From contig CALXMT010000012.1 in the NCBI GenBank assembly GCA_944389545.1, positions 1 through 61,862 of the forward strand: DNA of 61,862 bases. Reading direction: 5' to 3'. Origin of the DNA: an uncultured Kiritimatiellota bacterium. GTDB taxonomy: Bacteria > Verrucomicrobiota > Kiritimatiellia > RFP12 > DVOR01. Made by a program: the position numbers and the translations under genes. Position 1 is the stretch's first letter; each line of letters starts with the position of its first letter. The notes under the pieces are model-generated. The model saw nothing but the letters and a program-made list of their open reading frames with translations, did no database searches and was not told the origin of the DNA. Below, one piece after another: positions 1,896 through 61,862 of this stretch.

Positions 1896-2050
1896 TTTCC
1901 ACGAAGACACAAGGGGCGGCGTTGCCGCCCCGGAGAACAGAAAACAGAGAACGGAGCGTGCAGGCGCGAAGCGCCAAACCTTCCACGGCCACAGAACGCC
2001 CCTGCGGGGCGACTGGCGAAGCCTCTGTGCAAGTGGCGAGTTTCCCTTTC

Positions 2051-2216: not shown

Positions 2217-2700
2217 TTGCGCCCCGGAGAACGGAGAACAGAGCGTGCAGGCCCAAAGGGCCAAACCTTCCACGGCCACGGAGAACAGAACGCGCGACAA
2301 GCGCGCGACTGGCAAGCCACTGTACGTAAGAGCATAGCCGCTGCTTTCTACCGCGTCGTTCAGTTGGCACGTCCATCGGACGTGCCGGGGGTGCAGGGGA
2401 GATTGGAAGCTTGGAAGTTTAGAGGTTTGGAGGCTTGGCTTTCTCGGTGGGGCTCCGCCCCACACCCCTACAATTCCTCCGTCGCCCGTTTACCGGGCGC
2501 TCTGTTCTCCGTGGCCGTGGAAGGTTTGCGGCTTCGCCGCTGCACGCTCTGTTCTCCGTTCTCCGGGGCGGCATTAGCCGCCCCTCCCCTGCCAGGGCGT
2601 GGGGCAGCGCCCCACACTTTCCAATCAGCTAATTTTCTTTGTGCCCTTTGCGGTCCTTTGTGTTCTTTGTGGTAAAACATTCTGGCAGTCAGCCGGCGGC

Positions 2701-2993
2701 AGCCGGCCCCTAATCGGCTCCAATCTGCGTAATCGGCGGTTTCTTTTGCGACGTCTTCTCAAGCGTCGCGGTAGGACATATAGGACGTATAGGACATATA
2801 GGACGGGGCGGCTAATGCCGCCCTGTATGCACAGTGACCTCTTCGTCGCCCCGTAGGGGCGTTCCGTTCTCCGTTCTCCGTGGCCGTGGAAGGTTTGCCC
2901 TTCGGGCTGCACGCTCTGTTCTCCGGGGTGGCGAAAGCCGCCCCTTGGTTCTTCGTGCTCTTCGTGTCAGCCCCGCAGGGCAAACCCTTCACA
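2701..2993. repeat. Intergenic block duplicated 55 kb away
   Basis: Almost identical to about 57970-58231: the same order of CGGCCCCTAATCGG, AAGCGTCGCGGTAGGACATA, GGCGGCTAATGCCGCC, a CGCCCC hairpin, heptamers, GGGGYGGC/GCCGCCCC and CAGCCCCGCAGGGCAAACC. This copy has one extra module (about 2880-2925, the GTGGAAGGTTTG...TGCACGC hairpin), replaced in the other copy by plain heptamers. Confidence 0.8.
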
Positions 2994-3094
2994 CGCTTCC
3001 ACCGCCCCGCCCGTCGCCCCGCAGGGGCGCTCTGTGGCCGTGGAAGGTTTGGCGCTTCGCGCCTGCACGCTCCGTTCTCTGTTCTCCGTTCTCC

Positions 3095-3954: not shown

Positions 3955-6900
3955 ATGAAAATCAAACAAACCTTCCTGATCGCCATCGGCGCAGTCTTGG
4001 GACTCTTTGGCATGGGCCAGGCCTATGCCCAAAGCTTGTCCGGAGTTCACATCCAGAGTATCACCGTGAGTCCGGCCAGTGGGGACACCTCGCAACCGCT
4101 CGCCGTGGGTGACCGGGTTTACTTCGATGTCAAGCTCACGAACACCGGAGCCCTTAACATCACGGGGAACAGCCTCAACCCGGACCTGGCGTCCACGGGC
4201 CAACGGCCTTACCTCCAGCTGAACATGAACCTCAAGGGGACTAGCCAGAAGAACGGCATCTCCCTGGAAACGGACGAGCCCGAGTCGGAGACGACCAACA
4301 CCGCCGTCGCCTTCTACCAAGGCCCGGTCGGCAATGACCCGTTGGCCATGCGCTTCGTCTATGTGGTCCGTCCCGGCGACCTCTCCGCCGACCTGACCTA
4401 CGCCGTCAATGGGAACAATCAGCCCATCTTCAGCGACAACATCAACCGTCTCGCCCTCTCCGTGATCTCGTCCGGCACGGTTCCCTCCTACCAGAGCCTC
4501 TCCGCCTCGGTTCTCACCTTCGCCAGCGATCCTAACGATAAGCCTGAGGACGACCCTGGTAACACCAATCCCGATGTCGCCGTCAACGGTTACACCCTCA
4601 CCGTCGGCGATGTCCGAACCAATAATGAAGGCGTTCTCTACCAGGGCGTCAACCCCGCCACCCTCGCCTTGCCCGATGGCGCCGCCGTCTCCACCTTCGC
4701 CACCTCCCAGCTCGCCACCGCATGCCGCTTCTGGGTCGAATATAATGACGGCGGCACCTGGAAGCAGGTCCCCGCCGGCGTCACCTCTATGACCCGCGAC
4801 AACGCGCAGATCAAGCAGGGCGACGTCACCGCCGCCCTCGCCGCTCCCTTTAATAATACGTACTCCGCCACCGTCCGCGGCCCCACCACCTCCACCTTCA
4901 CCGAGCAGAAGCTCTTCCTCAACATCCCGCGCAACAACGCCTATCCTGCCGATGGTCAGATTCGCCTCTGCTACGGCGTCCCGCCCACCAACAACACCAC
5001 CAAGACCACCTATTCTTGGTGGGAATACACCCTCACGGCGACCCCGCTCATCACTGACGGCGCCTCCAACCTGGGCTATGCCGTCAGCAACTCCGCCCTC
5101 GATCGCAACAGCGACATCACCCTCTCCGGGTGCTCCGCCTCGTCTGGCTTGAATAACGTCACCATCGACGGCGGTGCCGGCAACACCGGCGTCATCATCG
5201 CCAGCGCCGGCGACGCCTTCACCATCTCCATCGCTAAGAACGCCAACGTCATTGCGGACAACTCCCCGCTCTACGCCGTCATCGAACCCCTCTCCACGAA
5301 CACCCTCGGCATCACCGCCGATCGCTACTACGTCCCCATCGACGTCACCGGCGCCACCACCGCCAACGCCACCTTCTCTGTTCCCGATAACGTCACCTCC
5401 GGCCAGTCGGTCTTCTTCCGTATCTGGGTGCCTCAGTTGGAAACCCTGACCCAGGGCACCGGCACCATCGATGTGCCCTTCTACCTCCAGGTCGACACCA
5501 CCGCCCACAGCGAATACATCACCATCACCGGCACCGCCTACTCCGGCGAGGAATACTACACCCCGCTCCCGACGGTCGAGGGTGACAACACCACCGCGCC
5601 GCTCAACTATCTCACCTACACCCTCTCCTTCGACGAGGCCTCCGAGGATGCCCGCAACGTGGTGGTCTATCCCGTCGGCGAGGACGCCGACGGCAACTAC
5701 GTCCGCATCGACGACTCCTTCACCTATGCCGATGGTCGCAAGCCCTTCGACGTCATCTCGGAATACATCCGTGTCCAAGGCACCGCCGCCGTCAGCTCCT
5801 CCGCCGATGCCGATTATGTGGTGCGCGTGAATGCCAACGCCACCTCCGGCACCTTCGTGGTCGCCCTGATCAACGACTTCCCCGCCAACTACATGGGCGG
5901 CACCGCCTCTTCTGGCGGCACCACCATCACCGTCCCCAACACCCCGATCCTGGTTGCCAAGACCAGCGACCGCAACGGCAACATCACCGGTGAGAATGAC
6001 GACAGCACCGTGCTGGAAATCACCACCGAGAACCGTGCCCCCACCATCCGCGGTGCTTACGGTCCCAACAACGCCGCCGTCAACCAGGCCGCCACGTGGA
6101 ACTTCACCGTCAATGACGTCGCCTCCGACTACCTCATTGCCCGCCTCTCTTATGGTGACAACAACACCGACACGAAGCTCTACGTCGATGAGGCTCGGAT
6201 GGAGGCCATCATGGGCGCGACCGCTTGGGCGGAGCGCCGGACGGCCTTGATGCAGCAGTACCAGCTGGAAGAGGACGACATCCTCGACCGCTCCACCACC
6301 GGTGCCGAGCAGATCTCCTTCACCCACACCTATACCTCCGGCACCACCGCCAGCTGGTTCTTCACCGTCATCGACTCCAGCGGCGTCCACTCCGACACCG
6401 ATGGCGTGGTCACGCTGGAATCCTCCCAGACCTTCCGCTTCTACGTCCTCTACACGCCCACGCTCCCCGGCTTCGGCTACGTCCAGTTCTCCCCCTCCGA
6501 TGGCAATGACGAGTGGGGCTGGAGCAAGAACCTCACCTTCACCGCCCTGCCCAGGAACGGCGTCACTTCCGCCACCTTCGAGGCCTTCCCCTTCAGGGCC
6601 GGCGACACCCGCTTCACCGGTGTGGACAACTTCCCCACGGCCTCTCTGAGCCGCACCAAGGACTCCTTCTTCTATCGGTGGGAGAACTACGATCAAGCCG
6701 CCGCCGGCGGTGGCACCACCACTATTGTCCCCCAAGGCCGCGAGTACGAGAACCCCATCACCATCAACCGTGTCCAACAGGGCGCCGGTGGCGGTGAGGG
6801 CAACACTGCCGCCGATTGGCAGGACATCACCCTCCAGGTCATCTTCGTCGCCGAATATCACCCCGGTGACGCCATCGACAGCTCGGTCTCCGCGCCTCAG

Positions 6901-9900
6901 CGCGCCAATGCCGCCCGCCTCGGCGACTACAACCAGGATGGCGTGCCGGATGGCTGGATCCTGAACGCCCTCGGCGACACCGACAACTCCCGCGCCATGG
7001 TCGAGGGCGGCACCGTGACCGTCCCCGAAGGCGACGGCCTCCCCGCCATCGGCTGGGTTGACAACATCTACCGTTACGGCGCCGCCGCCGGTGGCCGCCC
7101 CAACGGCTCCTTCGCCGTCGAGGCCAACAACTTCACCGCCAAGATGCGCGTCCGTGGTCGCGACGATGCCCTCAACGCCGCCATCCGCAACCAGATCGAC
7201 AAGGACGGCATCCCCGCCGGTGAGTGGATCTCCAACGTCCAGTGGGTCATCGCCGTCCGTCCCGAGGTCGTCGGCGAGGAGCCGGACGACTTCTCCGGCC
7301 TGAACGTCGGCACCTACGACAACACCTCCTCCACCTACACCCCCGCCTGGCGCACCATCCGCCTCTACACCGGCTCCGCCGCCAGCGTCACCTACACCGG
7401 CAACCGCATCCCGTACACCGCCACGACCCTCGCCAACGATACCGATTGGCACGTCGTGATGGACGAGGACGGTTACGCCATTCAGGCGAACAACACGGAA
7501 GGCCAGCCCTACCGTTACACCACCGTCTACGTCAACGTCAACGCGGATGATCCCGACTACGAGACCTTCCGTGTGGTCTACTCCTCCGAGCCTTGGGGCT
7601 ATCAGCAGACCTCCTACGTCTACCTCGACGAGAACAACCAGGAAATCCGCGACGACAACGACAACCCCATCTTCGACCCCACCCGCGTCGTCCAGACGGT
7701 GCAGAACGGCAACCCCGTCTTCGATGCCCAGGGCAACCCCGTCTACAATCGTCTGCAGCGTAACGGCAACCTCGTCACCGAGACCTTCTGGACCGCAGGT
7801 TCTGAAGTCGCTGGCGTGCCCTTCCCCTATGCCACCGACCCGGGCGAGACCGGCAACATCAGCGAGCTCCAGGGTCAAGTCTGGGCCATCGATGGTCAGT
7901 ACCACTTCACCGACACCCGTGTCGCCGGTGGTATGCTCGTTGACGAGCCCTTCTTCCACAACCGCTACATCGAGGACGGCACGATGACGCCTCGCCTGAC
8001 CTCTTGGCTCGAGCGTTTCCCCAACCTCGACACCAATGATCAGGACAACGACGGTCTGCCCAACGGCTATGAGTACTACTTCTGGTACTACGCCAGCCGC
8101 ATTGCCTACGGCTCCGCCTTCACCATCACCGACGAGGATGGCAACATCGTCCAGCAGCAGCTGAACACCGCCATCTGGCCGGCCATCGATATGCGCAAAC
8201 GCACCGGCGCCAACACGGGCAACGGCTTCACCCTCGGTCGCCGCTTCAACAACGCCTACAACCCCGACCAGGGCCTCACCCAGGGCAACTTCTGGACGCC
8301 CATCCCGGCCTCCGACGTCCTCGCCGCCTTCCATCCCCTCATGGGCGGCAACCCCGGCGCCACCGACACCGACAACGACGGCCTCTCCAACCTGGAAGAG
8401 TTTACCCTCGGCACCAACCCCATCGACTGCGACACCGACGGCGACGGCATGCCCGACGGCTTCGAGGCCGCCTTCGAGGGCCTCAATCCCCTCACCAACG
8501 ACGCCAACGGCAACCCCGACGGCGACTACTACGCCACCGCCACCCTCGAGCTCCATCCCGAGTATCACCACCTCTTCGTGCCGGTGCTGAAGGAAGGCGC
8601 GGTCAACGTCGCCAACGGCCGCCGCGTGGTCTATGACTACGAGGCCTCCGCCTTCTACTCCGTCGCGGAAGCCGACTTCGGCGAGCTCATTGCCGGCGAC
8701 GCCTTGGTCGCCCTCAACGCCTCCCTCGCCGACGTCCAGGCTTGGACCGATGACGTCAAGTTCGCCTCCATCGTCCGGACCGTGACGCTGAGCGACTTCG
8801 ACCTCTATCAGGCCCTCGGCTTCAATCCGAACACTGGCTGGTACGGCAGCCGTCCCACGGGCGCCAACACCCCCAAGTTCTCGGTCTGCCAGCCCGTGAA
8901 CACCGCGCCCTTCACCAACGTCCAGGAGTTCAACGCCGCCGTCCGCAGCGTCAATCGCTCCCCCGATGGTGAGGACATCGAGATCGCCACCTTCATCTCC
9001 CGCGCCAAGGAGACCTCCAACCCCACCAAGGCCGACACCAACGACGACGGCATCCCCGACGGCTGGTCCAACTACGTCGGCTTCTCCACCGCCCGCGCCG
9101 CCGGCGTCGACCAGGACGGCGACGGCCTGACCGCCGTCCAGGAGTTCCAGTGCCGCGTCGCCAACCTCCTCGTTGACGACCCCAACAAGGCGGAAGGCAC
9201 CTGGCCCGAGACCCTCAAGAGCGTCACCCACGAAATCGGCGGCGCCACCTGGGCCAACAAGCTCCTGCCCACCGACCCGTGGGATCCCGACACCGATGGC
9301 GACACCGTCATCGACGGTGACGAAGGCCTCTACTTCCTCTACGGCACCACCTCTGATGCCAGCTATCTCGGCGGCGGCGGTGACCCCAACACCGTCGACA
9401 CCGACGGCGACGGCATCATGGACGGTTGGGAATTCCGTTACGGCATTGCCGCCGACGCGCAGGCCCGTGCTGTCGCAGAAGACGGCATCCGGGATGAGGC
9501 GACCATCACCGCCATGGTCGAGGAGCTCACCGTCTTCGCCCCTGACCCGACCTCCACCAACGATCGCTCTGTCGACTACGACCGTGACGGCCTGACCAAC
9601 TATCAGGAATACCTCACCGGCATCCTGCGTCACTTCCGTTACGACCTCGGCACCCAGGCCGCCCGCCTCTACGCGGACAAGCCCGGCGCCTTCACGATGA
9701 ACAACGCGACCGGCACCATCTCCGAGTGGAGGGAATATCCGGATGTCTACAACGCCATCGAGGATCTCGGCTGGTCCAACGGCGTGCCCTCCCACACCTA
9801 CGCCAACGTCATCGAGGGTGAGGCCGACAATCCGCGCCGTGAACCCGTCGTCGTGAACGCCATTAAGCAGCAGTGGGCCGCCAACATCCAGCCCACCCGC

Positions 9901-12900
9901 CAGACGAGCCTCAGCGTCTCCCCCGTGGATGACCCCGCGGCCATCGTCTCCGCCTTCAACCGCAAGTGGACCTCCACCATCCTCGTGCCCACCGGCACCC
10001 AGCCCGGCGCCCAGGCCGACATCGCGGCCCTCGCCAGTGAGCTCGACATGGCCTACCTGCGTCTGCAGCAGGGCCAGCAGGTGCCCACCGCCACCGTCAT
10101 CTACCTCGTCACCCGCCTCGACCTCCTCACCGAGAACCTCCATGTGGATGACACGGCCCTGCCCAACCTGGTGACTGAGGTGCAGACCATCTGGGCTGCC
10201 CGCCGCAACCAGCTCCTCCGCGCCTTCAACATCGGCATGCAGGGCGATCAGCCCGTTCCCGCCGGCACGGAGGTCGACCCCGCCTACACCGGCATGGCCG
10301 AGCGCACCAAGGATTTGGGCGGCACCGCCGTCTTCAATCAGACCTCCGACTTCGAAGGCCCTGCCACGGGGAACGCTCAGAACGCCTACGAGGCCGCGCT
10401 CGTTGCGGCCACCACCCCCGGCATCCAGCAGCAGTACCGCGCGGCCATCCGTGGCCTGAACGGCGGCATCCTCATCAACGACGGCGCGGCCTACCGGGCC
10501 GACCGCGGCAACGCCTTCGTCGCCCCCGTCGGCTACCACCCCTCCCTCCGCCACTACACCGACGGCTCCGCCGTGGGCGCGGAGGACGGCTACCGGATCA
10601 TGGCCGTTGACTTCGGCACCCGCATGCCGACCGCCGGCGTCGATGCCGCCATCGCCTCCATGGAAGGTATGTCGCCCTTCTTCAACGACATCGTCGCCTG
10701 GGATCCCTTCGTCACCACCAACCCCATCGTCGCCGACTCCGACGCCGACGGCATGGATGACTACTGGGAAATCTTCCACGGTCTGAACCCCGTCCTCGGC
10801 GACTACTCCAACCTCGCCTACGGCAACGCCTCCACGGGCTTCACCAACTACTCCATCGACAAGGTGCACGACGTCTACCTCGGCTCCAACGGCCAGGGCT
10901 TCACCACCGACAAGATCGAGGGCGACGTGGAGGCCATCCCCGAGCGCAACAACCTCTTCTTCGTCGATGTGCTCGACCAGGCCCCGACCATGGAGAACGC
11001 CTTCGTCAACCCCGAGATGGAGAAGAACGCCGTCACCGGTTACGATTACTACAGCTATCCGTGGTTGGCCGGTGCGCCCTTCGCTGACCCCGATGGCGAC
11101 GGCCTCATCAACTCCGAAGAAGCCGTCAACCCCAACGGCAACACCGAGCGCTACGGCACCGACCCCTCCCCGCTGTGGATGACCGACCCCGACAACCCCA
11201 ACTCCCTCGTCACCCGCTTCTACGGCGGCGCCAACGCCACCCTCCGCATCGCCCTCGAGAAGTGGCGCGCCACGGAGCTCCCCAACGTTGAGGAAGGCCA
11301 CGAGGTTGACGCGGAGAACGCCGCCATCGGCGCCTACAACCCCAACGAGACCTTCCCCTACGTCAACTATCCCGGCGAGGATTATCCCGGCACCTTCGCG
11401 GCCTTCTTCCCCTACGAAATCAACGAAGGCTTCGATACCGACGGCGACGGCATCCCCGACAAGGTCGAGCTCGAGTCCAACGGCGGCAACCGCGGCGACC
11501 CGCAGTCTCTGCGCACGCCCTCTCGCCAGCAGGTCGCCTACTTCGGCGGCAACGGCGCCATGCAGTCCATGGCCGAGGTCCACTTCGGCCCCTACGCCCT
11601 GCAGACCTTCACCCTCGAGTGCTGGGTCAAGCCCGATGCCACGCAGGGCGGCGCCTATCAGCCTGACGCCAACGTGGATGCCAAGGAGGTCATCCTCATC
11701 GATCGTCCTTGGCGCTTCTACGAGACCAACGAGAGTGACAGCGGCGATAAGCTCAGCCCCATCCGCCATAACTTCCGCCTCGGCCTCACGGTCGCCGCGG
11801 ACGGCACGCTGACGCCCTTCGCCGACTACACCTCCGCCGGCACCACCGGCACCGCCAATGGCGGCACGCCCGTCTTCTCCAAGAAGGCCTCCGGCTCGCC
11901 CATCTCCGCCGGCAAGTGGAGCCACCTCGCCGTGACCTACAACGGTTCCACCCTCACCGTCTACGTCAACGGCGCCGCCGCCGGCACCGCCCAGGCGAGC
12001 CTCATCCCCGCCAACGGCCTCATTTCCGTGGCCGACAGCGACCCCAACGACGTCCAGCGCTACACCTATCGTCCCGCGCCCATCCTCATCGGCGCCGGCC
12101 CTGCCGACAACGCGTGGGTCGCCGATCTTGCCGCCGCGCCTGGCAACACCACCGTTGAGCGCTTCTATGCCGGCCGTTACAGCGGCTACATCGATGAGGT
12201 CCGCATCTGGAATGGCGTCCGCACCGCCGGCGAGATTTCCGGCAACATGAGCAAGACCTTCTCCCAGGTCGACCTCCTGCAGCAGCGCTACAACGTCTTC
12301 GCCGCTCGCTTCCGCGGTGCCGGCCTCTTCGAGACCAACACCCCCGCCGAGCTCCTCGCCATGTACACCTTCGAGGATCTCCTCGCCGGCACCCTCGGCG
12401 ACGAGCCGAAGAAGAACACCGATCCCGAGACCTCCGCGGAGAAGCCCTACCTGGACAAGAACGGCAACCCCGTCGCCAGCGCGGACGAGGCCGCCAAGGA
12501 GCCCGACACCAAGCCCGTCGAGACCTATCCCGGCGAAAAGACCGTTGGTGGCGCTGACGTCCCCGGCTCGCTCCTCTACCGCCGCGGCAATTACCCGACG
12601 CAGACCGAGAAGGACGCCTACACCGTCCTCCCGGAGGTGGACGAGGTCTACACCTCTTACTACGCGAAGAACTATCCTGCGGCCCTCCTCTGGCAGTATG
12701 CCGCGACCAACGTCCTCGAGTGCGTGCCGATGGCCCACAGCACCATCGCCCACCTCCCGCTGGCTGACGTCGAGCGCACTTCGACCAACCTGCTCCTGGC
12801 CGAGACCACCACGAACGGCTCGCCTGACCTCCTCCTGCCCTCCGGCAGCGCCCTCAACGTCAAGCCCGCCGACAGCGTCTACTGGACGCCCTACGGCGCC

Positions 12901-15900
12901 GGCCTGCGCGAAGGCGCCTCCGCCACCCAGATCTATCCCGTGAAGGCGACCGGCAACCCCTACGCCTATCGCTACCACGCCACGATCTTCTTCGACGTGC
13001 CCACCTACCGCAACCTCACCGGTTACTCCACGCAGGTGCCCGCCGACCTCCTCATCTTCGGCGACGTCTTCGCCAGGTACGATGAGTCCACGTGGGCTGA
13101 TGGCTCTCCCTCCACCGAGCCTGACACCGGCGATGACGACCAGGGTGGCAGCGGCGTCACCGGCGACGGCTCCCTCGAGTGGTTCGAGCACGGCTCCAAG
13201 GATGCCGTCGACACCGCCGATGGCGAGCTCTCCAAGGGCGGCGAGTACCTCGAGAACGAGATTGGCCGCGGCCAGAATACCGACACCGACCAGGACCTCA
13301 TGCCCAACTGGTGGGAGAACCACTACGGCCTCGACCCCGAGGACCCCACCGGCGACAACGGCCCCCACGGCGACCCCGATGGCGACTACCTCACCAACTA
13401 CGCCGAGTGGCTCGCCCGCTCCAACCCCAACAATCCCTCCACCGCCGGCAACGGCGTCCCGGACTTCCACATCCCGATCTGGGCCCGCCGCGGTCGTCCC
13501 ACCTTCGGTCTCCTCTACACCGACAATGACTTCATGGAGGATCACTGGGAGGCCAACTACGCCAACGAGCACCTCACCGTTGACCGCAACGACGCCTACG
13601 CCGATGCCGACAGCGACGGCTGGAGCAACTGGGCCGAGGCGCGCGCCAACTTCCGCACCGGGCGCCACTCCACCAACCCGCTCTCGGACACCTCCATCAC
13701 CGCGAACGGCAACTTCCTCAACGAGTTCCCGACCCCGGCCATCCGCCTGACCGTCGACTACTTCGGCGACCAGAACGTCTACACCAACGTCACCGCCGAC
13801 ACCAAGATTGTTGTCCACGGCTACACCGCCGACGGCAACAACTCCTCCCCTGACGTCACCTACGAACTCCCGCTCACCACCAGCCGTGCCGAAGGCGACG
13901 CGGGGGCTCTCGGCGGCAACGTCGCACAGGAGATGGGCAACTGGCGCTCCGGCACCCTCGCCGGCTATGTCCACATGGGCAACGTCGTCCCCGGCTCCTT
14001 CCAGATTGCCTACAGCTACGTCAGCCCCGTCTCCAGCGACGTGGTGGACACCAGCCTCAAGCCCACCTTCTACGTCACCGACCGTTCGCCTGACGGCACC
14101 AGCGCCGCCACCGGCCAGCTCTACATCGTCAGCGCGACCCTCGATGGCGCCGACGGCGGTTACTACGAATCCTTCGGCGAGGATCCTATCGGCACGATCG
14201 ACTACGCCACCGGCGCCTACACCGTCGACTTCGGCGCCACCAGCCCCGCGGCCGAGGCTTGGGAAGACGGCGTCTTCTCCGCCCTCCGCCCGGTCGAGTT
14301 CGAGGAAGGTGAGCTCCCCGTCGCCAACGTCGGCGCCACCTTGGTCCAGGAGCCGACCACCGGCGCCTACTTCGAGCGCTACGACTTCCCGTTCACCGCC
14401 TTCAACGGCAACCTCACCGCCCGTTATGCCCTCCAGGCCGGCGCGAGCAACACCTTCACCCTCGTCCAGCCCGACTCCGGCCACATCAAGGAAGGCATCA
14501 ACAACTTCTTCGTCTTCGTCGACTTCAACGGAGATGACTACTGGAACCGCGGTGAGCCCGCCGGCGTTCCCGACCAGCATGACGTCGACATCGGCTTCGA
14601 CCAGGTGAACCGCACCCTCCACGTCCAGCTCACCGAGGTCGCGCCTCCCGGAGCCCTCCGCTTCGATGTCGGCACCGTCCTCAAGAGCCTCACGGACGCG
14701 CTTTATCAGGGCACCACCACCGATGACCAGAACATGACCTCCACCGTCCCCAACGGCTACTACGACAACGGCCAGGCGATGCTGGATCCCACGGACTTCC
14801 TCGGCATCATCGGCACCGACACCACGAAGCCCGCCACCCTTATTGTGACGCTCTTCTCCTACACCGGCACCGGCACCGGTGACACCGAGACGCAGCAGCC
14901 CAATACGGAAGTCTTCCGTAAGCCTTATAACAAGAATAAGCCTTACATCTCCGAAGACGAGATTTATGCCAAAAATCCCAACGGCATCGAGCCGCCCGAA
15001 TCGCCCTCCATCACCGCCGCCAAGTATCTGATCTACCTGGTTCCGCAGGGCAAGGAAGCGTCCATTCCTCAGCTCACCGATTACTGCATCGGTGCGGTGA
15101 CGAACACCTTCAACGCCATGGATGGCTCCCTCACCACCTTGGTGCCCGCCTCCGAGGGTGGCATTCAGGGCGGCACCTACCGCTACAACACCGAAGTCAC
15201 CTTCGCGTGGAAGAGCAACGTCCAGGTGCCGAACTTCACCCTCACCATTCGGAAGACCCACGATGTCCACGGAGAGCCCGTCAAGGGCACGCCCACCGTC
15301 TTCTCCCGCACCATCCGCGGCGTCTCCGCTTACGCCAAGGATATCGGCTCCGACGGCACCGAGCAGTTCCGCTACCGCTACGTCCTCCCGCGTGGCATCG
15401 GCGAGCTCGCCGGCGACGTCCTCTTCGGCAACGGTCAGTATAAATATGAGCTCCTGCTCAATCCGTACTCCGGCGAGGAGCAGACGCTGACGGGCACCTT
15501 CAACATCGCCCTCCGCGAGTCCGGTGACCCGAAGAGCGTTGACTACGTGGACCTCCGCGAGGATCCCACCGCCAACGTCTCCACCCCGGCCAACACCGAG
15601 GACTCCTACTACGTCCGTGCCAAGATCCACTACACCGGCGTCCTCAAGGAGACCGACGACTTCAATGGTGCCAAGATCATCGTTGAGGCCCACTACTCCG
15701 GCTCCTTCAATGGTGATCCCATCGCCGCCAACTCCGACCTCCTCGTCTACGACGATGAAGATGGAGAGGCCGCGGAGCTCAACCGCACCATCAAGATGAG
15801 CAAGGCCAACACCTACAACACCACCGTCGCCGGTCCCGATGGTGAGCCGGTGGAGAACCCCGCCTTCTTCTCCACCGACTTCGATGTCGAGGTGCGTGGC

Positions 15901-16815
15901 CTGCCCAGCGACCGCGCGGTCTACCTCGTCGCCTTCCTTGACCTGGATGGCGATGGCCAGCGCGACCGTTGGGAGCCGTGGGGCTACGCCACCCAGGGCC
16001 AGGGCGCCGCCGGCGGGTACTACTTCGACCCCGCCCCCATCACCCCTGTCCGCTCCGGCTTCGCCACCAACGTGGACTTCTACATCCAGGACGTCGACGT
16101 CGACAACGACAAGCTCGCCGACAGCTACGAGTGGAAGAGCGCCGGGTTCCCCTCCGACAAGTTCGAGGACTGGAACGAGAACCTCACCGGCGGCTCCAAC
16201 GCCCAGGCCGGTCAGGCCCTCTGGACCAAGAACAAGGCCGGCAGGCTCGCCCTCACCGCCTACGGCGCCCAGATGTACGGTCTCAAGATCGTCTCCGTCG
16301 AGCCCGAGACCGGCGCGGTCGTCGCCGAGGGCATGCCCGAGAACCTCGAGGTCTTCCGCGACTTCATCGCGATCCTCGGCGAAGACACCGCCCTCAACGT
16401 CCTCAACGCCTTGAGCCAGAATGGCTGCACCGACTGCGAGCTCCAGGTCACCGACATGGACTTCGATGGTGAGAACATCACCTTCACCTGGGACGTCGTC
16501 GGCGTCTCCGAGTCCGGCGCCGCCACCGCCCTGGCCGACCAGCCCGTCTCCGTCGTGGAGGCCCTCGCCAAGGCTGTGAGCAACGCCAAGTACGCCATCT
16601 ACGGCAAGACCAGCCTCGATGACGCGACCTGGACCCTCGTCCGCACCGAGCAGGTCAAGGGTTCCACCAGCAACGTCAACGGCAAGCCCACCGCCACCCT
16701 CTCCATCAGCGAGGCCACCACGACCCTCGCCAATGAGGGTGCCTCCGAAGGCCAGGCGCCCAAGTTCTTCAAGGTGATTCTCTCCACCGAGGAGAACCCC
16801 GCCAAGACCCTCTGA
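3955..16815 (+). CDS. Giant secreted protein with TSP3-like calcium motifs and a LamG domain (4286 aa)
   Basis: The ATG at 3955 has GAGG 9 bases upstream and begins a clear Sec signal, MKIKQTFLIAIGAVLGLFG with cleavage after AYA. Much of the chain looks like beta-sandwich repeats. About a dozen Asp-rich motifs of the DxDxDGxxDxxE type (thrombospondin type 3/EF-hand-like) are spread over residues about 1360-4050, for example DTDGDGMPDGFE near 1500, DTDGDGIMDGWE near 1815 and DTDGDGIPDKVE near 2492. A LamG/concanavalin-like domain spans about 2530-2760 (FTLECWVKPDA, WSHLAVTYNG, GYIDEVRIWNG). The last 80 residues contain GKTSLDDATW and FFKVILS, a pattern also ending the other giant protein. Likely exported and surface-exposed, possibly an adhesin or polymer-binding scaffold. 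A strong terminator follows. No transmembrane anchor or LPXTG-type signal is evident. Confidence 0.9.
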   Translation: MKIKQTFLIAIGAVLGLFGMGQAYAQSLSGVHIQSITVSPASGDTSQPLAVGDRVYFDVKLTNTGALNITGNSLNPDLASTGQRPYLQLNMNLKGTSQKNGISLETDEPESETTNTAVAFYQGPVGNDPLAMRFVYVVRPGDLSADLTYAVNGNNQPIFSDNINRLALSVISSGTVPSYQSLSASVLTFASDPNDKPEDDPGNTNPDVAVNGYTLTVGDVRTNNEGVLYQGVNPATLALPDGAAVSTFATSQLATACRFWVEYNDGGTWKQVPAGVTSMTRDNAQIKQGDVTAALAAPFNNTYSATVRGPTTSTFTEQKLFLNIPRNNAYPADGQIRLCYGVPPTNNTTKTTYSWWEYTLTATPLITDGASNLGYAVSNSALDRNSDITLSGCSASSGLNNVTIDGGAGNTGVIIASAGDAFTISIAKNANVIADNSPLYAVIEPLSTNTLGITADRYYVPIDVTGATTANATFSVPDNVTSGQSVFFRIWVPQLETLTQGTGTIDVPFYLQVDTTAHSEYITITGTAYSGEEYYTPLPTVEGDNTTAPLNYLTYTLSFDEASEDARNVVVYPVGEDADGNYVRIDDSFTYADGRKPFDVISEYIRVQGTAAVSSSADADYVVRVNANATSGTFVVALINDFPANYMGGTASSGGTTITVPNTPILVAKTSDRNGNITGENDDSTVLEITTENRAPTIRGAYGPNNAAVNQAATWNFTVNDVASDYLIARLSYGDNNTDTKLYVDEARMEAIMGATAWAERRTALMQQYQLEEDDILDRSTTGAEQISFTHTYTSGTTASWFFTVIDSSGVHSDTDGVVTLESSQTFRFYVLYTPTLPGFGYVQFSPSDGNDEWGWSKNLTFTALPRNGVTSATFEAFPFRAGDTRFTGVDNFPTASLSRTKDSFFYRWENYDQAAAGGGTTTIVPQGREYENPITINRVQQGAGGGEGNTAADWQDITLQVIFVAEYHPGDAIDSSVSAPQRANAARLGDYNQDGVPDGWILNALGDTDNSRAMVEGGTVTVPEGDGLPAIGWVDNIYRYGAAAGGRPNGSFAVEANNFTAKMRVRGRDDALNAAIRNQIDKDGIPAGEWISNVQWVIAVRPEVVGEEPDDFSGLNVGTYDNTSSTYTPAWRTIRLYTGSAASVTYTGNRIPYTATTLANDTDWHVVMDEDGYAIQANNTEGQPYRYTTVYVNVNADDPDYETFRVVYSSEPWGYQQTSYVYLDENNQEIRDDNDNPIFDPTRVVQTVQNGNPVFDAQGNPVYNRLQRNGNLVTETFWTAGSEVAGVPFPYATDPGETGNISELQGQVWAIDGQYHFTDTRVAGGMLVDEPFFHNRYIEDGTMTPRLTSWLERFPNLDTNDQDNDGLPNGYEYYFWYYASRIAYGSAFTITDEDGNIVQQQLNTAIWPAIDMRKRTGANTGNGFTLGRRFNNAYNPDQGLTQGNFWTPIPASDVLAAFHPLMGGNPGATDTDNDGLSNLEEFTLGTNPIDCDTDGDGMPDGFEAAFEGLNPLTNDANGNPDGDYYATATLELHPEYHHLFVPVLKEGAVNVANGRRVVYDYEASAFYSVAEADFGELIAGDALVALNASLADVQAWTDDVKFASIVRTVTLSDFDLYQALGFNPNTGWYGSRPTGANTPKFSVCQPVNTAPFTNVQEFNAAVRSVNRSPDGEDIEIATFISRAKETSNPTKADTNDDGIPDGWSNYVGFSTARAAGVDQDGDGLTAVQEFQCRVANLLVDDPNKAEGTWPETLKSVTHEIGGATWANKLLPTDPWDPDTDGDTVIDGDEGLYFLYGTTSDASYLGGGGDPNTVDTDGDGIMDGWEFRYGIAADAQARAVAEDGIRDEATITAMVEELTVFAPDPTSTNDRSVDYDRDGLTNYQEYLTGILRHFRYDLGTQAARLYADKPGAFTMNNATGTISEWREYPDVYNAIEDLGWSNGVPSHTYANVIEGEADNPRREPVVVNAIKQQWAANIQPTRQTSLSVSPVDDPAAIVSAFNRKWTSTILVPTGTQPGAQADIAALASELDMAYLRLQQGQQVPTATVIYLVTRLDLLTENLHVDDTALPNLVTEVQTIWAARRNQLLRAFNIGMQGDQPVPAGTEVDPAYTGMAERTKDLGGTAVFNQTSDFEGPATGNAQNAYEAALVAATTPGIQQQYRAAIRGLNGGILINDGAAYRADRGNAFVAPVGYHPSLRHYTDGSAVGAEDGYRIMAVDFGTRMPTAGVDAAIASMEGMSPFFNDIVAWDPFVTTNPIVADSDADGMDDYWEIFHGLNPVLGDYSNLAYGNASTGFTNYSIDKVHDVYLGSNGQGFTTDKIEGDVEAIPERNNLFFVDVLDQAPTMENAFVNPEMEKNAVTGYDYYSYPWLAGAPFADPDGDGLINSEEAVNPNGNTERYGTDPSPLWMTDPDNPNSLVTRFYGGANATLRIALEKWRATELPNVEEGHEVDAENAAIGAYNPNETFPYVNYPGEDYPGTFAAFFPYEINEGFDTDGDGIPDKVELESNGGNRGDPQSLRTPSRQQVAYFGGNGAMQSMAEVHFGPYALQTFTLECWVKPDATQGGAYQPDANVDAKEVILIDRPWRFYETNESDSGDKLSPIRHNFRLGLTVAADGTLTPFADYTSAGTTGTANGGTPVFSKKASGSPISAGKWSHLAVTYNGSTLTVYVNGAAAGTAQASLIPANGLISVADSDPNDVQRYTYRPAPILIGAGPADNAWVADLAAAPGNTTVERFYAGRYSGYIDEVRIWNGVRTAGEISGNMSKTFSQVDLLQQRYNVFAARFRGAGLFETNTPAELLAMYTFEDLLAGTLGDEPKKNTDPETSAEKPYLDKNGNPVASADEAAKEPDTKPVETYPGEKTVGGADVPGSLLYRRGNYPTQTEKDAYTVLPEVDEVYTSYYAKNYPAALLWQYAATNVLECVPMAHSTIAHLPLADVERTSTNLLLAETTTNGSPDLLLPSGSALNVKPADSVYWTPYGAGLREGASATQIYPVKATGNPYAYRYHATIFFDVPTYRNLTGYSTQVPADLLIFGDVFARYDESTWADGSPSTEPDTGDDDQGGSGVTGDGSLEWFEHGSKDAVDTADGELSKGGEYLENEIGRGQNTDTDQDLMPNWWENHYGLDPEDPTGDNGPHGDPDGDYLTNYAEWLARSNPNNPSTAGNGVPDFHIPIWARRGRPTFGLLYTDNDFMEDHWEANYANEHLTVDRNDAYADADSDGWSNWAEARANFRTGRHSTNPLSDTSITANGNFLNEFPTPAIRLTVDYFGDQNVYTNVTADTKIVVHGYTADGNNSSPDVTYELPLTTSRAEGDAGALGGNVAQEMGNWRSGTLAGYVHMGNVVPGSFQIAYSYVSPVSSDVVDTSLKPTFYVTDRSPDGTSAATGQLYIVSATLDGADGGYYESFGEDPIGTIDYATGAYTVDFGATSPAAEAWEDGVFSALRPVEFEEGELPVANVGATLVQEPTTGAYFERYDFPFTAFNGNLTARYALQAGASNTFTLVQPDSGHIKEGINNFFVFVDFNGDDYWNRGEPAGVPDQHDVDIGFDQVNRTLHVQLTEVAPPGALRFDVGTVLKSLTDALYQGTTTDDQNMTSTVPNGYYDNGQAMLDPTDFLGIIGTDTTKPATLIVTLFSYTGTGTGDTETQQPNTEVFRKPYNKNKPYISEDEIYAKNPNGIEPPESPSITAAKYLIYLVPQGKEASIPQLTDYCIGAVTNTFNAMDGSLTTLVPASEGGIQGGTYRYNTEVTFAWKSNVQVPNFTLTIRKTHDVHGEPVKGTPTVFSRTIRGVSAYAKDIGSDGTEQFRYRYVLPRGIGELAGDVLFGNGQYKYELLLNPYSGEEQTLTGTFNIALRESGDPKSVDYVDLREDPTANVSTPANTEDSYYVRAKIHYTGVLKETDDFNGAKIIVEAHYSGSFNGDPIAANSDLLVYDDEDGEAAELNRTIKMSKANTYNTTVAGPDGEPVENPAFFSTDFDVEVRGLPSDRAVYLVAFLDLDGDGQRDRWEPWGYATQGQGAAGGYYFDPAPITPVRSGFATNVDFYIQDVDVDNDKLADSYEWKSAGFPSDKFEDWNENLTGGSNAQAGQALWTKNKAGRLALTAYGAQMYGLKIVSVEPETGAVVAEGMPENLEVFRDFIAILGEDTALNVLNALSQNGCTDCELQVTDMDFDGENITFTWDVVGVSESGAATALADQPVSVVEALAKAVSNAKYAIYGKTSLDDATWTLVRTEQVKGSTSNVNGKPTATLSISEATTTLANEGASEGQAPKFFKVILSTEENPAKTL

Positions 16816-17452: not shown

Positions 17453-17758
17453 ATTGCGCCTCGGGAAGCTTGGAAGTTTAGAGGCTTGGAGGCTTGGTTT
17501 GATTGGGTGGGGCGCGGCAAGCGCGCGACAAAGAGGGCGTTGGACAGAGCTGATGTGTTTCTAGGAATCACGAAGGACACGAAGGACCACAAAGGCACAC
17601 GAAGATTGCCGGATAGGCGTTCTAGAGGAGTGCCCTGCACAACGTCTTCACCGTCGCCCTGCAGGGGCGCTCCTGTATCTCCTGCATCTCCTGTGCGCCT
17701 TATGGCGACGCGGTAGGACATATAGGACAAGGGGCGCTGACGCGCCCCAGAGAACAGA

Positions 17759-17792
17759 GCGTGCAGGCGCAAAGCGCCAAACCTTCCACGGC
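17759..17792 (+). repeat. GTGCA-hairpin module, GGCGC/GCGCC stem
   Basis: Frame GCGTGCA-[stem]-AAACCTTCCACGGC with stem GGCGC, loop AAA and GCGCC. The next copy 14 bases downstream has the same frame but a different, equally complementary stem. Other copies read at about 1955, 2242, 30210, 31301, 33263, 42897 and 61807 on the + strand, and inverted at about 2511, 2881, 3034, 18029, 21104, 21422, 38196 and 57512. Confidence 0.85.
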
Positions 17793-17805
17793 CACGGAGA
17801 ACAGA

Positions 17806-17839
17806 GCGTGCAGCGGCGAAGCCGCAAACCTTCCACGGC
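17806..17839 (+). repeat. GTGCA-hairpin module, GCGGC/GCCGC stem
   Basis: Same 34-base frame as 17759-17792, but stem GCGGC, loop GAA and GCCGC: two arm positions changed and both compensated in the other arm. This adjacent pair is the clearest case of stem covariation in the window. Confidence 0.85.
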
Positions 17840-18113
17840 TACAGAGCGCCCCTGCGGGGCGACAAAGTGACGGATGGCCTCTCGTGGAAGATTAATCCTG
17901 CGGGGCTCCACCGAAAGACTCCCAAACCCAAAGCATGGCGTGCGAAGCCCGCCATGCCCTTACAGGCCTCCGGGCCGTGCGTGCGCCTTTGCGCACGCAC
18001 GGCCCGCCCCAGCGTCGCCTTCTTAGCCGTGGAAGGTTTGGCGCTTCGCGCCTGCACGCTCCGTTCTCTGTTTTCCGTTCTCTGGGGCGGCCTTGCCGCC
18101 CCCAAAAAAGGGC

Positions 18114-21031: not shown

Positions 21032-21640
21032 GGCTGATTGGCTGATTAGCTGATTGGCTGATTGGAGCGCCCCTGCGGGGCGACGGGCGGGGCAATGGGC
21101 AGAGGTGGAAGGTTTGGCCCTTTGGGCCTGCACGCTCTGTTCTCCGTTCTCCGGGGCGCAAAGCGCCCCTTCCCTGCACCCCCGGCACGTCTGCGACGTG
21201 CCAATAAGCACGCCCCACAGGAGATTCAGGAGATGCAGGAGATTCAGGAGCGCCCCTACGGGCGAAGGTGAAAACGTTGTGCAGGGCGCTTCTCTGGAGT
21301 ACCTATCTGGCAGTCTTCGTGAACCTTCGTGGTCCTTCGTGTCCTTCGTGTTTTTCTCAAAACTTTTCACATCTGCCTATCGCCTCGCCCGTCGCGCGCT
21401 TGTCGCGCGTTCTGTTCTCCGTGGCCGTGGAAGGTTTGGCCCTTTGGGCCTGCACGCTCTGTTCTCCGTTCTCCGTTCTCTGGGGCGGCATCAGCCGCCC
21501 CTTGGTCCTTTGTGTTCTTTGTGATAGCCCCGCAGGGCAAACCTTCCACGCTACTCTAGTGACGAAATCCGGCGGCGGCAGAATAATGCTTGCATGGGGG
21601 AGGAAAATGGGGCATACTGAAGGGAACGAAAGGATTGGGT
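21006..21640. repeat. Intergenic repeat mosaic before the sulfatase
   Basis: GATTGGCT octamers (21034-21065), CGCCCC hairpin, reversed GTGCA hairpin (about 21104-21138, stem GGCCC/GGGCC), GGGGCGC/GCGCCCC, GGCACGTC/GACGTGCC, ATCTCCTG-type repeats inverted (21220-21252), CTTCGTGTC tandem (21313-21356), a second reversed composite unit (21395-21500) and CAGCCCCGCAGGGCAAACC-like sequence. No gene; CATACT at 21613-21618 may be a -10 box. Confidence 0.75.
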
Positions 21641-30100: not shown

Positions 30101-30380
30101 TTGGAAGTTTGGAAGCTTAGAGGCTTGGAAGCTTGGAGGAGCCCCGGAGGTTTGGGCCTGAGCTGTCGCCTCCGGCGACGATGTGACCGGACGCTGCGCG
30201 GCACCCGCCGTGCAGGCGCGAAGCGACAAACCTTCCACGGCTAAGGCGCTGAAGACCCACAAAGAGCACAAAGACTGTCAGTGTGGGAAACCGCCGATTA
30301 CGCCGATTGGAGCCGATTAGGGGCCGGCTACCGCCGGCTTCCAAACTTCCAACAAAATAAATCTTGCCCCCCCCTTCTGT

Positions 30381-31215: not shown

Positions 31216-31651
31216 TTGTCTCGTGGGGCCTTCCCGGCCACCCCTCAAACTCCTCTTCGCGGACCCTTAGAGGGGTGGCTGACGCCACCCCGGAGAACGG
31301 AGCGTGCAGGCCCGGAGGGCCAAACCTTCCACGGCCACAGAGAACGGAGAACAGAACGCCCCCTTCTCCACGAAGACACGAAGGAACGCAAGGGCCTGGG
31401 CACTTCACCGTTCGGCCCTCCGGGCCTCACTACCGTGCCCATCCTTTGCGTTTCTGGCGTTTCCTCGGAGAATCGCACGTGTTGGAAACCGCCGATTCCG
31501 CAGATTAAAGCCGATTAGGGGCCGGCTCCCGCCGGCAGGACGCCCAGGGAAGCTTGGAAGTTTAGAGGCTTAGAGGTTTGGACGGGGCTTTCTCCGTCGC
31601 CCCGCAGGGGCGTTCCGTTCTCCGTTCTCTGTTCTCTGTTCTCTTGGAGGG
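31216..31651. repeat. Intergenic repeat mosaic after the PEP-CTERM gene
   Basis: Composite unit starting with GGGGTGGC/TGAC/GCCACCCC (31272-31291), heptamers and a GTGCA hairpin with stem GGCCC/GGGCC (about 31301-31334); CACGAAGGA tract; a palindromic CGGCCCTCCGGGCC segment; CCGATTCCGC tract; CTTGGAAG tandem; CGCCCC hairpin; GTTCTCC heptamers running to the next stop codon. No gene. Confidence 0.75.
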
Positions 31652-33052: not shown

Positions 33053-33588
33053 GAGGGGCGCTACGCGCCCCGGAGAACGGAGAACAGAGAACGGAGAACG
33101 GAGCGCCCCTGCGGGGCGACGGGCGGGGGTGCTGTGCAGAGCGGCGTCAGCCGCCGTCCTAGAGGTCCTAGTTGTCCTATATGTCCTACCGCGTTGCCAC
33201 AAGGCGCACAGGAGATGCAGGAGATGCGGGGGCGCTGCGCGCCCCGGAGAACGGAGAACAGAGCGAGCAGCGGCGAAGCCGCAAACCTTCCACGGCCACA
33301 GAGAACAGAACGCGCGCAAGCGCGCGACGGAGAAGTTGAGGGGGTGTGGGGCGAAGCCCCTCCCAATCAAGCCAAGCCTCCAAGCCTCTAAGTTTCCAAA
33401 CTTCCACAGGAGATTCAGGAGATGCAGGAGCGCGCGTGAACGCGCGACGGATAGGCCGCTGGGCAAATGGCGTTTCATAGAGTATGTTTCTCCTTGCATT
33501 CCGATTCCTTTGTCGCCCCATAGGGGCGCCTCTGTTCTCTGTTCTCCGTTCTCTGTTCTCTGGTGAAGTTTCACTGAGCGCCCCGCGC
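33053..33588. repeat. Intergenic repeat mosaic upstream of the metallopeptidase-like gene
   Basis: GGGGCGC/GCGCCCC hairpin (33055-33072), heptamers, CGCCCC hairpin, CCTAGAGGT tandem, CAGGAGATG tandem, a composite unit with GTGCA hairpin variant GCGAGCA (33263-33296) and a CGCGCG hairpin, CTTCCAAG tandem, GCGCGCGTGAACGCGC, CGCCCC hairpin, heptamers, then the gene-end palindrome of the phosphatase. No gene, and no promoter recognised for the metallopeptidase-like gene. Confidence 0.75.
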
Positions 33589-33603
33589 TCAGTGAAACTT
33601 CAC
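33563..33603. repeat. 19-bp gene-end palindrome at the phosphatase stop
   Basis: Arms 33563-33581 and 33585-33603, loop CCC, all 19 positions complementary. On the minus strand the last four codons and stop (VKFH, TGA) plus GCGC form the proximal arm; the distal arm is their exact inverted copy. AGAGAACAGAG heptamers follow. The strongest example of its kind in the window. Confidence 0.95.
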
Positions 33604-34779
33604 CGCCACATCCTTCACATATTGGGAGCGGAGGACGTCGGCGAGCTCCTTGACGATGTTGCGGCGGATGTCCAGGGCCATGGGGAGATTGGGGTCTTGG
33701 TGGGCGGGGTTGATGGCGGTGCCGACGTCGATGCGGATTTGGTCGGAGGCGAGGAGGAGGTCGCGCATTTTGGTGGCGGGGTTGACGCGGGCGTCTGGGC
33801 CGGGGTTGCGGAGGAGCTCGATGACTTTGGAGAGGGTGACGCAGCCTTCGGTGACGAGGTCGATGCCGGGGATTTCGGAGCCGGCGGGGACCTCGGGGTC
33901 GAGGGCGGTGAGGGGGGTGTCGATGGGGCGGTCGAGCTCGCGGGCGATGAGGTCTGCGGTGGAGCCGCCGGAGACGATGACGGAGACGCCGGGCTGTGTG
34001 GCGAGGGCGGCGTAGGCGGCGTCTTGCGTGCGGTCGAAGGGGCAGCCGGTGAGCATCTGGGTGACGCGCGGGCGGCGGTAGTGGAGCATGGCGGCGGTGG
34101 TGTCGTCGCCGGCGCGGCCGCCGTCGAGGCGGGTGGCGCGGTCGGCCGCGCCCTTGCAGAGGACGTGCGAGCCGACGTCCGGGGCGATGCGGATGGCCTC
34201 GCGGAGCCAGGGGACGACGCGCTCGAGGCCTTGGCCGAAGGGGGTGTCGGGGGCGCCGAGGCCGGCCTGGGTGATGCCGTCGGAACAGAAGAAGAGGCGG
34301 TCGCCCAGGCCCATCGTGAAGGTGGAGTAGGAGAGGGTGCGGCCTTCCCAGCGGGGGAGGGTGTAGGGCGTGCGCGCGATGGGGCGGGGCGTGTCGCCGT
34401 GGAGGAGGGTGGCCGGCGGGTTCTCGTATTCGATCATGCGGACCTCGCCGCGGGGGTCGGCGCGGATCATGGTGAAGGTGGAATAGGAGATGTGCCGGTC
34501 GGGGCAGATGGGCAGGGCGTCCATGATGAGCGTGGCGGCGCGGCGGAGGCCGAGGGCGGCGCGCATGTAGGCCATGGCCATGGTGGCGGTGAGGCTGGCG
34601 CAGACGTTGGCCTGCTGGCCGCTGCCGAGGCCGTCGGTGAGCACGGCCACCACCGAGCCGTCGGGCAGGCGCTCGCTGAGGAAGACGTCGCCGCTGCAGA
34701 CCTTGCGGAACTTGCGGCGGTTGAACCAATCCACCTCGATGAAGGGGGGCGGGGCCCCGTCTTGCGGTGCCTGGCTCAT
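33589..34779 (-). CDS. SpoIIE-type PP2C serine/threonine phosphatase
   Basis: 396 residues. Start ATG 34779 overlaps the stop of the hydrogenase-like gene (ATGA), indicating translational coupling. The N-terminal 240 residues show the PP2C/SpoIIE metal-binding segments: VLTDGLGSGQQA near 47-58, FFCSDGITQAG near 165-175 and GRAGDDTTAAML near 225-236. Such phosphatases dephosphorylate Ser/Thr on anti-anti-sigma factors or similar switches. Residues about 240-396 form an extra domain not recognised, with VIVSGGSTADLIARELDRP. In clostridia and other anaerobes this phosphatase is encoded next to sensory [FeFe]-hydrogenase-like proteins, matching the operon here, so it is the probable output of an H2 or redox signalling pathway. 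The gene ends in a 19-bp palindrome. Confidence 0.87.
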   Translation of the reverse strand: MSQAPQDGAPPPFIEVDWFNRRKFRKVCSGDVFLSERLPDGSVVAVLTDGLGSGQQANVCASLTATMAMAYMRAALGLRRAATLIMDALPICPDRHISYSTFTMIRADPRGEVRMIEYENPPATLLHGDTPRPIARTPYTLPRWEGRTLSYSTFTMGLGDRLFFCSDGITQAGLGAPDTPFGQGLERVVPWLREAIRIAPDVGSHVLCKGAADRATRLDGGRAGDDTTAAMLHYRRPRVTQMLTGCPFDRTQDAAYAALATQPGVSVIVSGGSTADLIARELDRPIDTPLTALDPEVPAGSEIPGIDLVTEGCVTLSKVIELLRNPGPDARVNPATKMRDLLLASDQIRIDVGTAINPAHQDPNLPMALDIRRNIVKELADVLRSQYVKDVAVKFH

Positions 34780-38062: not shown

Positions 38063-38585
38063 CTCGATTGGAAGTGAGAATACAATGCACCTCAATGGAA
38101 GCTTGGAGGCTTGGAGGCTTGGTTTTCTCGGTGGGGCTCCGCCCCACACCCTACAACTTCTCCGTCGCGCGCTTGTCGCGCGTTCTGTTCTCCGTGGCCG
38201 TGGAAGGTTTGGCCCTCCGGGCCTGCACGCTCTGTTCTCCGTTCTCCGGGGCGGCATTAGCCGCCCCTCCCCTGCCGGGGCGTGGGGCAGTGCCCCACAC
38301 CCCTCCAATCAGCCAATCCGCTAATTATCCAATCCTCTTTGTGTCCTTCGTGTCCTTTGTGATTTCTAAAAACACTGGCAGTCAGCGTGCGCTAGCACGC
38401 CGCCCCCCTCTGTGTCCCTCTGTCCTCTCTGTGCTCCTCTGTGTCCTCCGTAATCTGCGGTTCCTTTTGCGGCGTGCTTTGTGAACCTTCGTGGTTCTTT
38501 GTGGTTCTTCGTGTCAGCCCCGCAGGGCAAACCTCCCACACACTCCCATCGCCCCGCCCGGTGCGCACAGCGTCCCTAGATTTGC

Positions 38586-42861: not shown

Positions 42862-42973
42862 GGGGCGCTGGCGCGCCCCGGAGAACGGAAAACAGAGCGT
42901 GCAGGCGCGAAGCGCCAAACCTTCCACGGCCACGGAAAACAGAACGCGCGGCAAGCGCGCGACCGGCAAAGCC

Positions 42974-57266: not shown

Positions 57267-57969
57267 CTGACGCGCTGGAAGCTTGGAAATTTAGAGGCTT
57301 GGAGGCTTGGACAGGGCTTCGCCCATCGCGCGTTTACGCGCGCTCCTGCATCTCCTGTATCTCCTGCATCTCCTGTGGTCGTCTTAATGGCACGTCGCAG
57401 ACGTGCCGGGGGTGCAGGGGCAATTGGAAGTTTGGAAGTTTGGAGGCTTGGATGTTTGGTTTCTTTGCTCAGCGATTTCTTTGTCGCCCCATCGGGGCGC
57501 TCCGTTCTCCGTGGCCGTGGAAGGTTTGGCCCTCCGGGCCTGCACGCTCTGTTCTCCGTTCTCCGGGGCGCAAAGCGCCCCTCCCCTGCCGGGGCGTGGG
57601 GCAGCGCCCCACACCCCTCCAATCAACCAATTCGCTAATCATCCAATCCATTATTAATCCAATCCCCTTTGTGTCCTTCGTGTCCTTTGTGATTTCCAAA
57701 CACACTGGCAGTCAGCGTGCGCTAGCACGCCGCCCGTCTCTGTGACCCTCTGTATCCTCTGTGTCACTCTGTGTTCTTCCGAAATCTGCGTTTTCCCCAC
57801 ACTGGCAGTCTTCGTGTACCTTCGTGGTTCTTCGTGTCCTTTGTGAGTGCTGCGCAGCGGTCGGCTTCATCGCCGCCAAGGGCGGCGGCCCGGGCTTCAA
57901 CCTCCGGGGCTCCTCCAAGCTTCCAAGCCTCCAAACTTCTAAGCTTCCATTGTGCGTCCAGCCGGCGGT

Positions 57970-61692: not shown

Positions 61693-61862
61693 TGGGAAGT
61701 TTGGAAGCTTGGAGGTTTGGAGGCTTGGAGGAGCCCCGGAGGTTTGGCCCCGGGCTGTCGCCTCCGGCGACGATGTGGCCGAAAGACAAAGACTGCCAGA
61801 ATGGGGCGTGCAGGTGCGAAGCACCAAACCTTCCACGGCTACCGCAGTCAACTATATTCCTC
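61693..61862. repeat. Repeat mosaic at the window end
   Basis: CTTGGAGG tandem (61696-61732), a GTCGCC/TCC/GGCGAC dyad (61757-61772) also present near 30162, a GTGCA hairpin with the otherwise unseen stem GGTGC/GCACC (61807-61840) and GCAGTCAACTATATT (61844-61858), the inverse of 46-60. No gene. Confidence 0.75.

Follow-up and report, generated by a model that had tools for sequence, protein, structure and literature searches.

The window analysed here, a stretch of 61,862 nt from an uncultured Kiritimatiellota bacterium, holds two neighboring 34-base hairpin modules that share their flanks and differ in their stems, each difference in one arm being matched in the other. The question raised by this locus is what the modules are and how the stems came to vary in this paired way. 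Our answer is that the module is probably a very small non-coding mobile element of 34 nt that enters S|A|A, where S is G or C, in place of one A.

The unit and its copies

The host genome, G000, is a Kiritimatiellota MAG of the genus Candidatus Spyradenecus, 2.53 Mb in size and 95.8% complete. The unit has the structure CGTGCA-[5-bp stem, 3-nt loop]-AAACCTTCCACGGCY, or, counting only the distance between the ends, CGTGCA-[13]-AAACCTTCCACGGCY. The ends are invariant and flank a variable but paired hairpin, and CGTG at one end is able to pair with CACG at the other. The preliminary description had correctly placed 2 adjacent 34-base copies here, although the true unit lies one base off from its 34-mer. 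About 250 copies are present in G000 and 110 in G003, a relative of the same genus; by the unit pattern, 4 other congeners have 1 to 8 copies and the rest have 0. Pattern counts over the whole of G000 are 261 for exact AAACCTTCCACGGC and 249 for GTGCA-N8..22-AAACCTTCCAC, and reversed-pattern controls across the same genome gave 0 matches. The analyses of units below are based on stretches amounting to 1.68 Mb of G000 and 1.02 Mb of G003, and all of the genomes are drafts. Six pattern matches in G048, from another family, were discarded as one unrelated repeat without the unit, and matches among viral contigs were set aside as chance, the pattern being too loose. The exact repeat GTGCATTCCACTTTTGCTCGCCCCAAACCTTCCAC at contig ends (G048:C24, C61 and C98; L037, L043, L049) is a chance match to the pattern and looks unrelated.

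Allowing 2 mismatches at most, AAACCTTCCACGGC was found 19 times in the window, as compared to a chance expectation of 0.46. AAACCTTCCAC occurs 18 times, and 17 of these are hairpin units distributed over both strands, in agreement with the count of at least 17 first given. The 2 adjacent units are both on the plus strand, one at 17760 to 17793 with stem GGCGC/GCGCC and loop AAA, and one at 17807 to 17840 with stem GCGGC/GCCGC and loop GAA, 2 heptamers downstream at a spacing of 47 = 33+14. Their host array of (A/G)GAGAAC(A/G) heptamers, at 17748 to 17854 (+), lies between the hairpins GGGGCGCTGACGCGCCCC, which ends at about 17750, and CGCCCCTGCGGGGCG. The combination GGCGC/GCGCC with GAA is found at 1957 to 1990 (+), 3036 to 3069 (-), 42898 to 42931 (+), and 18025 to 18058 (-), the last in a chimeric context with the heptamer on the left and a CACAAAG-type sequence on the right. 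GCGGC/GCCGC with GAA is found at 2513 to 2546 (-) and at 33264 to 33297 (+), where the 5' end is CGAGCA. GGCCC/GGGCC has the loop AAA at 2244 to 2277 (+), 21423 to 21456 (-), and 21101 to 21134 (-; the 3' end is altered after CCAC, with CTC for GGC), and the loop GGA at 31303 to 31336 (+), 38196 to 38229 (-), and 57513 to 57546 (-). The other 3, all with GAA, are a 32-nt unit with a 4-bp stem GCCC/GGGC at 2882 to 2913 (-), a unit with the recurrent mismatch GGCGC/GCGAC at 30209 to 30242 (+) whose orthologous locus in G003 is identical, and a GGTGC/GCACC unit at 61807 to 61840 (+) in the context GGGG|A|ACCG. The stems GGCGC, GGCCC, GCGGC, GGTGC, and GCCC with their complements, and loops that are mainly GAA, AAA, or GGA, were also found to hold genome-wide.

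The eighteenth AAACCTTCCAC belongs to a sister motif, AGCCCCGCAGGGC-AAACCTTCCAC at 21527 to 21549 (+), which is without the CGTGCA end and was left out of the unit count. This motif, AGCCCCGCAGGGC-AAACCTTCCACAC, recurs at L072, L078, L109, and other loci. It has AAACCTTCCAC beside a hairpin, but ends TTCGTGTCAG...CACAC, and is probably a different repeat.

Presence and absence between relatives

Syntenic regions of G000 and G003 were aligned at 90 to 98% identity and contain 16 clean indels of 15 to 400 nt, of which 7 are the unit with identical ends. In 5 of these 7, a lone A stands in place of the 34 nt; in another a C is left, and the last takes in an extra heptamer. S|A|A is the site at which the exact 34-nt unit is gained or lost, mostly by a swap for one A, a feature overlooked in the preliminary description. 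The base at position -1 to the unit is G or C at 190 of 191 distinct G000 sites, and the unit is followed by A at 190 of 191. When the unit was deleted and 20+20 nt of flank were joined, an existing sequence was recreated with an A between the flanks at 48 of 289 sites, with a G at 1, and with C, T, or no base at 0. Using flanks of 14+14 nt, 121 of the 289 sites were restored at the true boundaries, whereas shifting either boundary by up to 4 bases restored at most 9, save for shifts made equivalent by the 7-nt period. Both the indels and the deletion tests indicate that one base is replaced at unit sites, with no target-site duplication.

Intact empty arrays and unit-poor relatives lead us to infer that insertion, not loss, is the main direction. 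At the L288/L365 site the empty allele carries C, and the unit may have been lost there. At the one locus where G008 was compared as an outgroup, the array itself is missing.

Target arrays and neighboring units

Among 311 unit contexts, 225 are GAACRGA heptamers, in which the target reads GAG|A|ACRG, 44 are CAC|A|AAG, 10 are GGGG|A|ACCG, and 6 are AGCC|A|ATCAGC; in the relatives G005 and G006, the context is CTCC|A|A arrays. A single hairpin type can be found in several unrelated target contexts. The congener G008 has 148 heptamer matches versus approximately 9 units, so the arrays exist largely without units. Intergenic DNA in the window is a mosaic of many short tandem arrays (CACGAAGGA, GGCTGATTA, AGTTTGGAAGCTTGG, ATATAGGAC, AGGAGATAC); G+C-rich hairpins, likewise variable in paired fashion, lie between them.

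Adjacent units have the same orientation and are 40 or 47 nt apart (33+7k), or 45 if the first is a 32-nt unit, and in 13 of 16 adjacent pairs the hairpins are different. Given this spacing and the differing hairpins, the pair at 17760 to 17840 is best read as 2 probably independent insertions placed 2 heptamers apart, not as a duplication followed by drifting stems. One adjacent pair in G000 is a single unit in G003 (L075/L101).

A rival account is gene conversion, in which a few origins of the unit would have been followed by copying between dispersed near-identical arrays through homologous recombination, with no transposition enzyme. In its favor, repeated arrays hold most of the units (the 225 of 311 in heptamer context), and the last base of the unit, Y, tracks the array class, being T wherever the context is CAC or GGGG. 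Chimeric contexts at about 12 of 311 units show that recombination does occur at units, and G000 and G003 have wholly different intergenic blocks between flanking genes that are still over 90% identical. Against it stand the different hairpins in adjacent heptamers and the fact that the same exact ends with replacement of one A are found in at least 5 unrelated contexts, which requires several separate insertions at minimum. We consider conversion an unlikely explanation for the unit, and prefer the mobile element that replaces one A.

Covariation and the mutation pattern of the stems

The preliminary description had offered 2 explanations for paired stem changes, selection for a folded form or copying from arm to arm, and had proposed a statistical check of covariation. 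Using 58 distinct 33-mers, inner stem covariation is 0.239 versus 0.081 for shuffled sequences, a level reached in 0 of 500 shuffles, and the score falls to about 0.04 with the partners slid by one column. The outer CGTG/CACG pairs hardly vary, so the result applies to the inner stem. The DNA folding energy of the unit is no lower than that of shuffles, so the evidence for a fold is covariation, not energy. The covariation speaks for the folded form being under constraint in the copies that spread.

The claim that nearly all changes in one arm are matched in the other is true between the few abundant types, but not for rare private changes, which are mostly one-armed. By copy (n = 300), 220 stems are in 4 perfectly paired types, 71 are broken, 7 have a wobble, and 2 are further compensated; by type, private stem mutations are about 18 broken and 6 wobble versus 2 newly compensated. 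It had been suggested that finding unpaired changes as frequently as paired ones would speak against the paired pattern; here, private mutations are mostly unpaired and the abundant types covary. Nor are mismatched stems limited to the copy near 30210, the only one previously named as imperfect. A recurrent mismatch at pair 2 (GGCGC/GCGAC, GGCCC/GGGAC) accounts for 47 of the 300 copies, all among the 71 broken, and the corrected forms GTCGC or GTCCC are never seen among the 300. Loops are purine-N-A in 288 of 300 copies. About 9 orthologous filled pairs between G000 and G003 are identical. Where orthologues differ in place, the changes are in a single arm or the loop, including the unit at 18025 to 18058, whose G003 orthologue (L100) has the one-armed change GCGCC to ACGCC, and L297/L340, also one-armed; where the entire hairpin differs, the flanks are mostly altered too.

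Arm-to-arm copying, that is, template switching within the palindrome, would yield the matched two-arm differences seen between common stem types. The unpaired private changes, the 47 copies that keep a G-A mismatch without a corrected form, and the one-armed or flank-altering nature of the orthologue differences all argue against it, and we regard it as very improbable. One-armed private changes are what decay would produce in copies descended from a few source lineages. The G-A mismatch types have spread despite a broken pair, which, like the unremarkable folding energy, is a point against the mobile-element reading.

Search for a mover

The suggestion of a REP-associated tyrosine transposase is not supported, as neither G000 nor G003 gave a match to Y1_Tnp, with controls positive in 5 of 14 known genomes. 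The RVT_1 family of reverse transcriptases has 0 matches among 17 congeners, and a reverse transcriptase of this family was rejected as the mover on this basis, though one outside RVT_1 may yet be involved. IS110 has one match in G000 and none in G003, and was rejected as the mover since only G000 among the carriers has it. IS91 Y2_Tnp has no match, but the control genomes were equally silent. The absence of an enzyme, for Y1_Tnp in G000 and G003 and for RVT_1 in the 17 genomes, is a further point for gene conversion and one against the mobile-element reading; it comes from draft genomes and is not final.

A REP-like element moved by a Y1/HUH transposase would share with the unit its intergenic, palindromic character and hundreds of copies on both strands. 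Apart from having no Y1 transposase in the carriers, the unit's hairpin is not fused to a GTAG guide of the REP kind, and REPINs are inverted pairs (PMC3116915), whereas the unit is polymorphic as a single 34-mer and adjacent units are direct. We give this reading almost no credence.

Genes with AAA-ATPase_like/PDDEXK_9 domains (PF09820/PF08011) number 24 in G000 and 35 in G003, with few or none in most congeners. PF08011 nuclease genes are within 200 bp of units in 15 of 41 cases, versus 146 of 1659 for other genes. The number of PF08011 genes correlates with the number of units, but the number of heptamers correlates better. Gene duplication carries units along and clade history is shared, so we take the association only as a lead. 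Genes of this kind are found at 321 to 1895 of the window and at G003:C3:161300-173900 (L100), and some are in tandem with a spacing of about 1.8 kb and a unit in each gap.

Gene context

Units lie outside genes: when genes were called with a simple codon model (coding fraction about 73%), 0 of 202 G000 units fell inside one. There is no bias in orientation, with 53 units in the same and 63 in the opposite direction between tandem genes, 38 between convergent genes, and 33 between divergent genes. This location and lack of bias make a role in mRNA or termination unlikely, and it was rejected in the absence of a strand bias or fixed orientation to genes. Conserved flanks and a covarying stem could also reflect a functional RNA or a terminator within transcripts, but with no T-run or Rfam match at units, and units present or absent between close relatives, we dismiss this as scarcely plausible. 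A tRNA search found none. Elsewhere in the window, 33551 to 33620 (-) resembles the Rfam gyrA RNA (RF01740) at 34.5 bits (E = 6.6e-5), short of the gathering score, and 2 giant plus-strand ORFs of about 4,000 amino acids each are at 3955 to 16815 and 44967 to 56939.

Relation to known elements and proposed mechanism

Nostoc SDRs are reportedly very small mobile hairpin repeats of 21 to 27 nt with compensatory changes, often located in heptameric tandem repeats. Likened by description, the unit is also a very small mobile hairpin with compensatory changes in heptameric arrays, and in the manner of SDRs it is under 50 nt, dispersed, and exactly present or absent at orthologous sites. It differs in being 34 nt long, in belonging to Kiritimatiellota rather than cyanobacteria, and in its target S|A|A with one base replaced. 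SDR5 inserts precisely within HIP1 (PMC4390886). The yeast mitochondrial GC clusters (GC42) are short intergenic hairpin elements, polymorphic between relatives, with a putative AG target-site duplication (PMC4478555), and other mitochondrial hairpin elements include double-hairpin elements and the sponge RHE (PMC2800124). The unit is short and intergenic as these are, and polymorphic between relatives as GC42 is, but it is bacterial rather than organellar and replaces one base with no AG duplication. MITEs are likewise non-coding and dispersed with complementary ends, here CGTG/CACG, but the unit is far shorter, has no target duplication, and no parent transposon was found. The best-supported reading is that the Kiritimatiellota unit may work like the Nostoc SDRs and resemble mitochondrial GC clusters in kind.

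As we picture it, the 34-nt unit would take the place of one A at S|A|A sites, for the most part within short tandem arrays that already existed between genes. Its sources would have been a few copies that differed in their hairpins, so that the paired differences would now label the lineages able to be mobilised. Pairing in the stem is probably maintained by the need of the mobilised single strand to fold; the folded strand may be what is recognised, and a candidate host or helper enzyme would move it. An insertion enzyme, conversion between arrays, or both are all candidate routes of spread. A more specific and tentative proposal is that the hairpin might insert at S|A|A by a base-replacing reaction, the catalyst being either an enzyme so far unrecognised or the host's own replication and repair enzymes at work on the folded strand. 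If true, this would be transposition without duplication, reverse transcriptase, or known transposase.

Few mobile DNA units whose ends are exactly defined would be shorter than this one, which is polymorphic between the related genomes studied here. How short hairpins move is a long-standing question, both for the SDRs of cyanobacteria and for the GC clusters of mitochondria. The exact exchange of 34 nt for an A, the hundreds of copies, and sister genomes that bear the arrays and are poor in units make the question of the mover testable, since a candidate should be present in both G000 and G003.
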